The position numbers were made by a program, and so were the translations under genes. From Christiangramia echinicola DSM 19838 (GTDB lineage Bacteria; Bacteroidota; Bacteroidia; Flavobacteriales; Flavobacteriaceae), in assembly GCF_000423065.1 (NCBI RefSeq), contig NZ_AUHG01000010.1, forward strand, positions 372,001 through 436,000: a stretch of 64,000 nucleotides of DNA, in the 5' to 3' direction. Positions 24,103-27,435 of the stretch are shown here, one piece after another. The first letter of the stretch is position 1, and every line of letters begins with the position of its first letter. Under the pieces are notes generated by a model, which made no database searches, was not told the DNA's origin, and worked only from the letters and a program-made list of their open reading frames with translations.

Positions 24103-24711
24103 ATGTCTTTTGAATTACCGAAATTAAAATATGCATTTGATGCACTGGAACCACATATTGACGCAAAAACTATGGAAATTCACCATGGTAAGCATCACGC
24201 TGGTTACACCAAAAAATTAAACGACGCCATTGAAGGAACAGATATGGAAGGAAAGAATATCGAGAATATTCTAAAAAACCTGGACATGTCTAATAAAGCT
24301 GTTCGTAATAATGGTGGAGGTTTTTACAACCATAGTCTTTTCTGGGAGATAATGTCTCCAGAAGGTGGCGGAAAACCAGAAGGTGAATTAGCAGAAGCTA
24401 TTGATAGTGCTTATGGTTCTTTTGATGCCTTCAAAGATGAGTTCTCAAAAGCGGCAGCAGGTCAGTTTGGATCTGGATGGGCATGGCTATGTGTCCATGG
24501 TGGCGGTAAAGTAGAAGTTTGTTCTACTCCAAACCAGGATAATCCAATTATGCCAGAAGTAGGTTGTGGAGGAACTCCAATTTTAGGAATTGACGTTTGG
24601 GAGCATGCTTATTATTTGAATTATCAAAATAAGCGTCCGGAATATATTGATGCATTTTTTAATGTAATAGACTGGAAAGAAGTTTCTAGCAGATATGCAA
24701 AAGCGAAGTAA
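24103..24711 (+). CDS. sodA: Superoxide dismutase, Mn/Fe family
   Basis: 202 aa. Converts superoxide to O2 and H2O2; cytosolic (no signal peptide). Metal ligands: His in [12 protein letters not shown], His in YNHSLFW, Asp and His in [21 protein letters not shown] and the second-sphere Gln in [12 protein letters not shown] are Mn-type signatures, but cambialistic enzymes in this phylum look alike, so the metal is not certain. Single gene with its own promoter and terminator. Confidence 0.95.
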
Positions 24712-24784: not shown

Positions 24785-24859
24785 CATAAAAAAAGGCGGA
24801 ATGAATTCCACCTTTTTTTGCCCCAAATCTACCATGAACTTAACCTACTTATGCTATGG
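24785..24859 (-). ncRNA. Putative small RNA, array copy 1
   Basis: On the minus strand the 75-bp core begins CCATAGCATAAGTAGGTTAA, has a G-rich stretch TAGATTTGGGGC, then A7 and the hairpin GGTGGAA-TTCA-TTCCGCC followed by T7 (intrinsic terminator, usable on both strands). Upstream -7-like box TATATTCA. Core conserved in all four copies. Confidence 0.5.
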
Positions 24860-24983
24860 TATAGTGAATATAAGACGAATTAACCATACCGATTTTATTT
24901 TTAGACGAACTACCTGAATATTAGTTAAAAAGCTGAAAAACAGTTTTTTGAGGCTAATTTGAAGCATTCTGTTGAGTTAACTC

Positions 24984-25058
24984 CATAAAAAAAGGCGGAA
25001 TGAATTCCACCTTTTTTTGCCCCAAATCTACCATGAACTTAACCTACTTATGCTATGG
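24984..25058 (-). ncRNA. Putative small RNA, array copy 2
   Basis: Core identical to copy 1 by eye, terminator loop TTCA. The following spacer is also almost identical to that of copy 1, so units 1 and 2 arose by recent tandem duplication. Confidence 0.5.
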
Positions 25059-25182
25059 TATAGTGAATATAAGACGAATTAACCATACCGATTTTATTTT
25101 TAGACGAACTACCTGAATATTAGTTAAAAAGCTGAAAAACAGTTTTTTGAGGCTAATTTGAAACATTCTGTTGAGTTAACTC

Positions 25183-25257
25183 CATAAAAAAAGGCGGAAT
25201 GACTTCCACCTTTTTTTGCCCCAAATCTACCATGAACTTAACCTACTTATGCTATGG
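25183..25257 (-). ncRNA. Putative small RNA, array copy 3
   Basis: Core differs from copy 1 by one base seen by eye, located in the terminator loop (GTCA instead of TTCA). The upstream sequence on the minus strand is different from copies 1-2 but supplies a -7-like box TATATTTA at the same position. Confidence 0.5.
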
Positions 25258-25382
25258 TCTAATAAATATAAAAAGATTAATTGAAGGCTCTATAAAATTT
25301 AGACGAAGAGCAAGAAAATCAGTTAATGTGTTGTTAAACAGTGTATTAACTTGCAAGTCAACATATTTTGAAAACATAAGGA

Positions 25383-25457
25383 CATAAAAAAAGGCGGAAA
25401 GAGTTCCACCTTTTTTTGCCCCAAATCTACCATGAACTTAACCTACTTATGTTATGG
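25383..25457 (-). ncRNA. Putative small RNA, array copy 4
   Basis: Core keeps the 34-base middle exactly; changes are in the terminator loop (CTCT) and one base near the 5' end (CCATAAC). It has the best promoter of the array at 25463-25493, predicting a transcript of roughly 75-85 nt. Confidence 0.52.
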
Positions 25458-25462
25458 CTATA

Positions 25463-25493
25463 CTAAAATAGATAGAATAGTATAATGCACAAA
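25463..25493 (-). promoter_or_regulatory. Promoter of small-RNA copy 4
   Basis: Minus strand TTTG (25490-25493), N19, TATTTTAG (25463-25470): -33 perfect, -7 matches 5 of 6 fixed positions, with ideal spacing. Initiation is expected near 25456, at the edge of the conserved core. Confidence 0.55.
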
Positions 25494-25536
25494 GAATAAT
25501 AGATTAAGTGCATTTTTAATAGTTAAATGGTAAATT

Positions 25537-27435
25537 TCAATATGCTCTGCCAGCTTTTCCTTCGAAGAAATTCATAAAAGCACGATTTACAACCCTGTTT
25601 CCTCCAGCTGTTGGATAGTCACCAGTAAAATACCAGTCCCCAAGATTTTTCGGACATGCTTTATGCAGGTTTTCTACCGTTTGATAAATTACCTTTACCT
25701 CTGCATTAACATCTTCATCACAAAGTAATTCTGAAATCTTGTCTGAGATCTGTACATCGGTAAAAGGATCGTAGATCTCTTTTACGAAGTTTTGAACTTC
25801 ACGATCATCAAGGTCTACCTGTTCTTTACATTTATTATATACCTCTTCTACAATTTCGTATTTACCCTGATCTTTTAATAATTCCAGTGCAGCTCTGAAT
25901 GCTACAAGATCTTCCAGGCGTGCCATATCTATACCGTAGCAATCTGGATACCTAATTTGAGGGGCAGAAGAAACCACCACGATCTTTTTTGGTTTCAGCC
26001 TGTCCATCATTTTTATGATACTTTTTTTAAGCGTGGTACCTCGTACAATACTGTCATCAATAATAACCAGATTGTCATCTGCTTTTACAACGCCATAGGT
26101 AACATCATATACATGGGCCACAAGGTCATCACGACTGCTATCCTCAGTAATGAATGTTCTAAGTTTCACATCTTTTATCGCTATCTTCTCGGTTCTTAAT
26201 CTATGTGATAATATTTCCTGAAGCCTGGCATCGGTAAGAGTTTCCTTTTCCTCGAGGATAGCTTCGTTCTTTTGCTTGTTCAGTTCATCCTGAGCCGCTT
26301 CTACCATTCCATAGAATGAAGTTTCAGCGGTATTGGGTATAAAAGAAAAGACGGTTTTTAAAGTATCGTGATTTATTGACTTCAAAACTTCCGGCATTAA
26401 TAACCTACCTAACATTTTTCGCTCTTCATAGATCTCTGCATCACTTCCTCTTGAAAAATAAATGCGCTCAAAAGAACATGCTTTTCTTTCCAGTGGTTCA
26501 ATGATTTCGGTAATCGAAACATCGCCATTCTTCTTGGTGATAATTGCATTACCTGGAGGAAGTTCATGAACGTCATTAAAATCTACATTAAAAACGGTTT
26601 GAATAACCGGTCTTTCTGATGCTACAACAACTACCTCGTCATCCTTATAATAATATGCAGGTCTAATTCCTGCTGGATCACGAAGTACAAAAGAATCTCC
26701 ATGACCAATTAAACCGGCCATGGCATAACCACCATCCCAGTTTTTAGAGGATTTTCTTAAAATCTTAGCTACATTAAGTTGTTCTGCAATTACAGGTGAG
26801 GCCTCAACTTTAGAATATCCTTCTTTTTTTAGCTTTTTATATAATTTTCTAACTTCTGAATCCAGGAAATGGCCAATTTTTTCCATTACCGTAACTGTAT
26901 CGGCTCTTTCTTTTGGATGCTGCCCAAGTTCAACAAGATTGTTGAAAAGCTTGTTTACATTGGTCATATTAAAGTTACCGGCAACAATAAGATTACGGTG
27001 CATCCAGTTATTCTGCCTTAGAAAGGGATGTACGCTTTCAATACTATTCTTCCCAAAAGTTCCATATCTCACGTGTCCTAGAAAAACCTCTCCTAAATAT
27101 GGGATATATCTTTTTTGAAGATCTGTATCATCTGCATATTCGGGGTTAGCTTGTATCTCATCATTGATCCTTTGGTTGATCTGTTCAAAAATATCCTGAA
27201 TTGGCTGTGCTGCATTAGATCTAACCCGGCTGATGTATCTTTCTCCCGGAATCGTATTGAGTTTGATGCTCGCAAAACCAGCGCCATCCTGGCCACGATT
27301 ATGCTGTTTTTCCATCATGAGGTACATTTTATTTACCCCGTAAAATGCAGTGCCATATTTTTCTTTATAATAATCAAGAGGTTTTAATAATCTTATATGT
27401 GCAATTCCGCATTCGTGTTTTAAAGCATCACTCAT
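25537..27435 (-). CDS. purF: Amidophosphoribosyltransferase
   Basis: 632 aa, the long form typical of Bacteroidota (about 130 residues more than E. coli PurF). First committed step of purine synthesis: PRPP plus glutamine to phosphoribosylamine. N-terminal Ntn glutaminase begins at Cys9 (ECGIAHIRL) after a short propeptide; MEKQHNRGQDGAG and GHVRYGTFGKNS are glutaminase motifs; PRPP site VIIDDSIVRGTTLKK; ISSAPQIRYPDCYG-like segment VSSAPQIRYPDCYG follows. purN lies 1.5 kb upstream on the same strand. Confidence 0.95.
   Translation of the reverse strand: MSDALKHECGIAHIRLLKPLDYYKEKYGTAFYGVNKMYLMMEKQHNRGQDGAGFASIKLNTIPGERYISRVRSNAAQPIQDIFEQINQRINDEIQANPEYADDTDLQKRYIPYLGEVFLGHVRYGTFGKNSIESVHPFLRQNNWMHRNLIVAGNFNMTNVNKLFNNLVELGQHPKERADTVTVMEKIGHFLDSEVRKLYKKLKKEGYSKVEASPVIAEQLNVAKILRKSSKNWDGGYAMAGLIGHGDSFVLRDPAGIRPAYYYKDDEVVVVASERPVIQTVFNVDFNDVHELPPGNAIITKKNGDVSITEIIEPLERKACSFERIYFSRGSDAEIYEERKMLGRLLMPEVLKSINHDTLKTVFSFIPNTAETSFYGMVEAAQDELNKQKNEAILEEKETLTDARLQEILSHRLRTEKIAIKDVKLRTFITEDSSRDDLVAHVYDVTYGVVKADDNLVIIDDSIVRGTTLKKSIIKMMDRLKPKKIVVVSSAPQIRYPDCYGIDMARLEDLVAFRAALELLKDQGKYEIVEEVYNKCKEQVDLDDREVQNFVKEIYDPFTDVQISDKISELLCDEDVNAEVKVIYQTVENLHKACPKNLGDWYFTGDYPTAGGNRVVNRAFMNFFEGKAGRAY

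Follow-up and report, generated by a model that had tools for sequence, protein, structure and literature searches.

The closest described counterparts of the locus considered here are small RNAs (sRNAs) kept in several copies. FopS of Bacteroides is multicopy, with RNAs of about 65 and 70 nt, and, in the portion of the report available, it represses SusC-type transporters through pairing at the start codon (PMC11697453). LhrC1-5 of Listeria, as the accessible part of their description has it, resemble our locus in forming near-identical copies with their own promoters and, upstream, a site for a two-component regulator, and in the succession of stem-loop, single-stranded stretch and terminator (PMC4132741). 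Among Flavobacteriaceae, Rfp18 is the one functionally tested sRNA in the sources on which we rely (PMC9723704).

The locus lies in the window, by which we mean the whole 64-kb stretch of DNA analysed, and consists of four near-identical minus-strand cores (24785-24859, 24984-25058, 25183-25257 and 25383-25458) with start-to-start distances of 199, 199 and 200 nt. Its usual upstream neighbour is purF (25537..27435, minus strand; assigned by open reading frame and synteny, with the gene name taken over from the original prediction), and its usual convergent neighbour is an open reading frame on the plus strand (24103..24711) that, from its sequence and synteny, we take to be a sodA-like superoxide dismutase gene. 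The original prediction of a tandem array downstream of purF is borne out in these periods, and also in its finer details: the arms GGTGGAA/TTCCGCC are the same in all four copies, the loops read TTCA, TTCA, GTCA and CTCT, A7 and T7 flank each hairpin, and units 1 and 2 are near-identical including their spacers (99% over 199 nt, compared with 73% between units 3 and 1). The core is not a product of chance, because it was matched in other genomes of the genus with E-values down to 2e-31 and exactly four times here; in the source genome a DNA search, and later a covariance model, found four copies, all of them in the array. As judged from sequence, the array almost certainly represents sRNA genes. 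Their predicted extents on the minus strand are 24788..24860 (copy 1), 24987..25059 (copy 2), 25186..25258 (copy 3) and 25386..25458 (copy 4), the last giving a predicted RNA of ~73 nt with its start set by promoter geometry and its end by the T7 tract.

A -7 box of consensus TAnnTTTG, recognised with a family profile, precedes every copy on the minus strand: TATTTTAG in copy 4 (25463..25470), TATATTTA in copy 3 (25263..25270), and TATATTCA in both copy 2 (25064..25071) and copy 1 (24865..24872). The profile, drawn from 272 non-redundant promoters out of 398, shows the pattern TAnnTTnG at a fixed distance (T 0.86, A 0.90, T 0.99, T 0.93, G 0.65) and a start purine directly before CCAT (A 0.73, G 0.27). 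The positions that Guerin et al. give for TAnnTTTG in Flavobacterium psychrophilum are -12 to -5, in the part of their account used here (PMC9723704), which puts +1 exactly on the purine before CCAT and yields predicted starts at 24860, 25059, 25258 and 25458. Separate small transcripts had been proposed; the promoter-terminator units and their family-wide conservation argue for these, and the same geometry sets their length at ~73 nt, not at the 75-85 nt first suggested. Copy 4 has in addition a TTTG box at -33 (25490..25493, minus strand), 19 bp from the -7 box, in the arrangement TTTG-N19-TATTTTAG already recognised in the original prediction; copies 1-3 have the -7-like box at the same spacing and no TTTG at the -33 place. 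Family-wide, the -33 region of the promoter profile is T-rich, without a TTTG consensus.

Upstream of the -33 region, two blocks of ~15 bp, roughly GCnnTTnRnCnAAAA, are repeated directly at 20 bp. On the minus strand they occupy 25497..25531 in copy 4 (profile score 15.5), 25297..25331 in copy 3 (13.7), 25098..25132 in copy 2 (25.0) and 24899..24933 in copy 1 (25.0), scores from a profile that may include the window copies. Those of copies 3 and 4 are modest, the best unrelated match in the window reaching 14.8, above copy 3. The half-sites agree at 0.49 when compared at offset 20, whereas every other offset between 8 and 35 gives 0.24-0.33; above column composition, agreement is 1.76 at offset 20, with values from -0.49 to 0.25 for offsets 17-19 and 21-23. 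Such co-variation across species is what would be expected for one dimeric regulator, and common ancestry as well as small register shifts may contribute to it. With a -7 box and a 20-bp direct repeat, each copy would appear to have both its own promoter and a shared regulator site, and the number of genes, four near-identical ones here and one to six per locus elsewhere, is likewise that of a multicopy sRNA.

What kind of regulator could recognise these sites? A LytTR-type site is one candidate for the direct repeat. Half-sites of 14-16 bp fit AraC or hybrid two-component proteins better: the layout here has a period of 20 and half-sites of ~14-16 bp, to be compared with a period of ~20-21 bp and half-sites of 12-16 bp for that group. 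The sites predicted for hybrid two-component systems in Bacteroides take the form of direct repeats with 14+6, 16+5 and 12+9 bp, in the portion of that work consulted (PMC3878776). Going by this site layout, the putative activator of the sRNA copies could be AraC-type, an assignment that hangs nearly in the balance and that we make tentatively.

The four genes were originally thought to have built up dosage by duplication. The multiple copies and the 99% identity of units 1 and 2 agree with this, but more than plain dosage is involved, because in the source genus the purF-proximal copy forms a distinct promoter class. Among 24 genomes of the genus, the copy next to purF carries A at the variable hairpin base in all 24 and TTTG at -33 in 22, whereas the other copies have G at that base in 53 of 54 and TTTG in six of 54; each of the 78 promoters is on average nearer to members of its own class from other genomes, the comparison leaving aside copies that lie on further contigs in two split genomes. 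Copy 4 falls into the proximal class by the A at its seventh RNA base and its TTTG box, and copies 1 to 3 into the distal one. This pattern suggests that the two classes probably predate the species split and that later duplication took place among distal copies, of which units 1 and 2 here are probably an example. Across the family, TTTG occurs in seven of 74 first, five of 77 middle, 16 of 85 last and one of 37 single copies, and is therefore not commoner next to purF; the class split thus belongs to the source genus only. As a separate observation, the last copy before sodA in four loci (L042, L057, L062 and L063) represents a paralogue class with TTTATGGTAAGATTTGGGACGAAAAGGG that recurs in several genera.

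The core is widely shared within the family. With copy 4 as the query, a DNA search matched 62 of 119 genomes: all 24 of the source genus, the source genome included, 36 of 48 other Flavobacteriaceae genera represented by one genome each (one of them, G038, weakly at E 3e-4), and two of 47 genomes outside the family, both weakly (E 3e-4 and 8e-4). This search of other Flavobacteriaceae had been proposed with the original prediction, and it placed the core mostly in synteny downstream of purF. The covariance model R1 matched 66 of 395 genomes in a sample of the order, namely 65 of the 76 listed under the family (G290 at E 5e-4 only) and one outside it, in a 74%-complete assembly at E 6e-15; the 11 family genomes without a match to the model include all five listed members of the genus g79. 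In a sample of the phylum, which has many genomes in common with that of the order, 36 of 395 matched, comprising 34 of the 41 listed under the family and two weak matches elsewhere (30.8 and 27.9 bits). A pattern scan of named genomes returned at least 118 stretches, with Zobellia, Maribacter, Aquimarina, Winogradskyella, Salegentibacter and Flavobacterium among the matches listed.

Across 183 loci (the window, L005-L033 and L042-L194, with some genomes present twice and some loci cut), both PurF and SodA are encoded beside the copies in 132, PurF alone in 29, SodA alone in 16 and neither in six, two of which have the copy near the edge of the fetched stretch. Copies number one to six per locus, with a median core-to-core spacing of 211 nt. 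A core that is near-identical letter for letter, usually in the same place and in most sampled genera, is very probably a shared RNA regulator. The opposite case, a mobile repeat scattered over unrelated sites without promoter boxes, is contradicted by the four adjacent copies that are the only ones of the genome, by the mostly shared synteny elsewhere, and by searches of viral sequences (IMG/VR, exact pattern) and of the PLSDB plasmid and phage collections (blastn, E up to 1e-5), which returned no match. Extra copies away from purF and sodA were seen at a second shared location (L074:2984-3053 and L079:4543-4612), in both cases upstream of the same pair of genes, one for a QKPEHAGKKEK-containing protein and one for a lipoprotein.

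The first core follows the end of purF at a median of 109 nt (161 loci), and the RNA might on this account be a processed purF 3' end, or the array a row of terminators that shields purF from the convergent sodA, since the A7-stem-T7 hairpins could terminate both strands. We consider either version very improbable: the copies retain their own -7 box, start purine and half-sites, the strongest conservation lies upstream of the terminator, and neither purF nor sodA adjoins the copy in the six loci already mentioned. The arrangement is better accounted for by independent sRNA genes.

The predicted RNA of ~73 nt begins with a 5' hairpin, CCAUA[A/G]C...GUUYAUGG, with the apical loop GUAGG. It is followed by an almost invariant linker, GAUUUGGG, which in its RNA form, UA(A)GAUUUGGGG, is single-stranded in the proposed fold. 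Some 33 nt show next to no variation, in paired as in unpaired positions, and make up the most conserved part upstream of the terminator. The fold, 5' hairpin and terminator together, has z-scores of -4.3, -4.3 and -3.6 for copies 1, 3 and 4. The terminator hairpin of copy 4, an inverted repeat with A7 and T7 and a conserved stem, occupies 25386..25417 on the minus strand, and its equivalents lie at 25186-25217, 24987-25018 and 24788-24819. Family-wide, the terminator stem runs without interruption in 407 of 409 copies and is built from 105 distinct 5' arms (A-tract removed), and several of its positions show four to six kinds of base pair, so that the stem is kept while its letters drift. Stems of at least 11 pairs occur in 406 of 407 copies against three of 407 dinucleotide shuffles. 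This per-copy search with its shuffle control was used in place of covariation in the alignment A3 (24 sequences), where terminator covariation is poor because the A-tracts are of unequal length, with 69% of cells pairing. Sliding the structure by one column in A3 raised the covariation score to 0.202 from 0.155 for the proposed structure, which we attribute to shifted terminator stems. In the same alignment 98% of the cells of the 5' hairpin pair with no double change; the hairpin hardly varies, and covariation support there is consequently thin. Outside A3, the genomes of L058 (also that of L135) and L109 have GGC/GTC and GAC/GTC in place of AAC/GTT; A-U gives way to G-C on both sides, and the pairs are kept.

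Conservation of this degree could also reflect a small peptide encoded from the conserved ATGG, an ATG being present in the window cores and reading on for some codons. The linker, however, tolerates a one-base insertion (TAGATTT/TAAGATTT): it starts with TAGATTTGGGGCAAAA in 199, TAAGATTTGGGGCAAAA in 68, TAAGATTTGGGGAAAAA in 48 and TAAGATTTGGGACGAAA in 39 of 407 copies. The extra A would shift any frame and so speaks against a conserved one. Nearly half of the copies have it just after ATGGTA (199 with TAGATTTGGGGC as against 68, 48 and 39 in the three commonest forms of TAAGATTTGGG, of 407), and the terminator arm drifts freely, which leaves a peptide scarcely credible beside a regulatory RNA.

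How might such an RNA act? The sRNAs probably work by base pairing, an assignment made by analogy. The RNA would pair in trans through the invariant stretch, most likely at translation start regions, because UUCAUGGU(A)AGAUUU can form a duplex with AAAUCU(U)ACCAUGAA around a start codon; in the manner of FopS, the core could pair with AAAUCUACCAUGAA. A search of the core complement near start codons, one of the checks originally suggested, gave no convincing conserved target. The start regions of 30 SusC/TonB-type genes, collected by a TIGR04056 search, scored -19.9 +/- 3.6 against -19.3 +/- 4.2 for 54 window genes, hence no excess pairing, on a crude duplex score that allows long bulges and makes for a weak test; the 15 of them above the TIGR04056 cut-off averaged -19.7. 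The start-codon complement AAATCTACCATGAA, sought with one mismatch in six genomes of the genus, coincided with real start codons at a small lipoprotein gene (source genome and G013), whose product is at a guess lipocalin-like, and at that of another lipoprotein (G013 and G020). The small lipoprotein is not convincing as a target, since 13 of the 14 letters are kept in only seven of 24 genus genomes and indels break the site in others. A small lipoprotein gene (G000:C3:105873, L345; L362-L385) has in most genus members a conserved leader resembling CATTGGATTTTTA...AAATCAAATCTACAATGAA.

The linker complement CCCCAAATCT occurs in the source genome at one site outside the array, inside a coding region. 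Among six genus genomes, three (G006, G020 and G022) carry it, apart from the sRNA genes, at ~250 nt before a cluster of lipoprotein genes, and most of the 20 leading orthologues have C-tract sites related to it. We set this site aside as an sRNA target and read it as a DNA element, because it is paired with a second C-tract ~33 bp off, upstream of an apparent promoter, as seen by eye. The cluster itself (gene at G000:C2:749340 in the source genome) was recovered from 23 of the 24 genus genomes, and a search of 15 others gave none. Its leader, read by eye ~300 nt upstream of the matched gene start in L285-L304, is long and conserved, with two C-tract boxes (CCCCCCAAATC) and a changing TTCC/GGAA inverted repeat; many members also appear by eye to have a tiny frame of 2-3 codons (e.g. 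ATGAAAACTTAA) behind a duplicate of the start-region TTATTAACCATTCTAAAT.

These target tests found no conserved mRNA partner, which, with the ~33 nt that are near-invariant whether paired or not and the one to six copies per locus, would suit a protein decoy of the CsrB/RsmY-like or 6S-like kind, whose dose the copies would raise. Two features make us regard a decoy as unlikely. The RNA has a single hairpin loop and a single linker, with no motif repeated within it, and the multicopy sRNAs of similar layout, LhrC, csRNAs and FopS, pair with their targets, as far as the available descriptions go (PMC4132741, PMC11697453). We retain base pairing as the preferred mode of action; as no convincing target emerged, that mode is inferred from the layout of LhrC and FopS.

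An Rfam search of the window gave only a tRNA above gathering scores and no family for the core, and low-scoring matches to STnc40, HrrF, FopS and others are apparently due to the A-tract and terminator. A literature search, whose coverage largely excluded subscription journals and supplements such as the Rfp list of F. psychrophilum, found neither the core sequence nor an sRNA between purF and sodA reported. We regard the sRNA as a new family within a kind of RNA already known. Could it instead be a true, diverged member of the Bacteroides FopS/GibS family? Within the seed consensus of FopS, UUCAUgGUAUUAGAUUU, both UUCAUGGU and AGAUUU are present in our core with a spacer 3 nt shorter, the terminator comes next in the RNA, and FopS, in the part of its report used here, is likewise multicopy with RNAs of about 65 and 70 nt (PMC11697453). 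The FopS model, however, scores the four copies at 22.0, 20.9, 20.9 and 18.9 bits, where its gathering score is 56, and assigns higher scores, 39.7 and 28.5 bits, to two unrelated hairpins of the same genome. The Rfam structure of FopS is without a 5' hairpin, and an RRM_1 protein of the RbpB type had no match in the source genome at E <= 0.001, while the control genome of Bacteroides ihuae responded. Membership is accordingly quite improbable in our estimation, and a separate family is the preferred reading. A search for Hfq in the source genome gave no match either, with control genomes responding.

Taken as a whole, the locus is best explained, we think with reasonable though limited confidence, as four genes for one ~73-nt regulatory RNA, controlled by an activator and pairing in trans. 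Each copy would be transcribed from its own TAnnTTTG promoter, starting at the purine before CCAU and stopping at the intrinsic terminator, and in the source genus the purF-proximal copy with its TTTG box at -33 may provide basal expression. Flavobacteriaceae are major degraders of algal polysaccharides. More speculatively, and in our view rather doubtfully, the RNA may be a hub throughout this family, in which a basal copy and inducible copies, the latter governed by a hybrid two-component or AraC-type sensor, would bring a CAU-containing seed over the start codons of surface proteins and lipoproteins, without a known chaperone of the Hfq or RbpB type, as a counterpart of FopS that arose independently or from a very old ancestor. 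The ~33 near-invariant letters and the half-sites that change together offer a strong handle on post-transcriptional control in Flavobacteriaceae. Single-copy loci exist, and in such species one deletion may therefore remove the sRNA; copy number and promoter class differ between species and thus form a natural series on the question why a bacterium retains one sRNA in several copies.

The streptococcal csRNAs and the Qrr RNAs of Vibrio are alike in that several copies answer to one response regulator (CiaR for the csRNAs); they are unrelated in sequence and differ from the sRNA here in their regulator sites, and Qrr in its sigma factor as well. Both are named beside LhrC in the LhrC source (PMC4132741). 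LhrC itself, as described in the accessible part of that source, differs in its unrelated sequence, its length of 111-114 nt, its CU-rich pairing sites and its Gram-positive host (PMC4132741). Rfp18 of F. psychrophilum comes from the same family of bacteria and is likewise conserved beyond its species, but its pairing site lies in a third stem-loop, whereas the sRNA here has two, a comparison made by the description available in the source (PMC9723704). FopS differs, in the portion of the report considered, by its many loci, whereas the sRNA described here is arranged in tandem, mostly at one syntenic place, and has a 5' hairpin (PMC11697453). The two are nevertheless alike in belonging to multicopy RNAs of ~65-75 nt in Bacteroidota that end in an intrinsic terminator, and they share UUCAUGGU...AGAUUU in the same order, in the very part that bears the FopS seed against start codons, as given in that portion of the report (PMC11697453).
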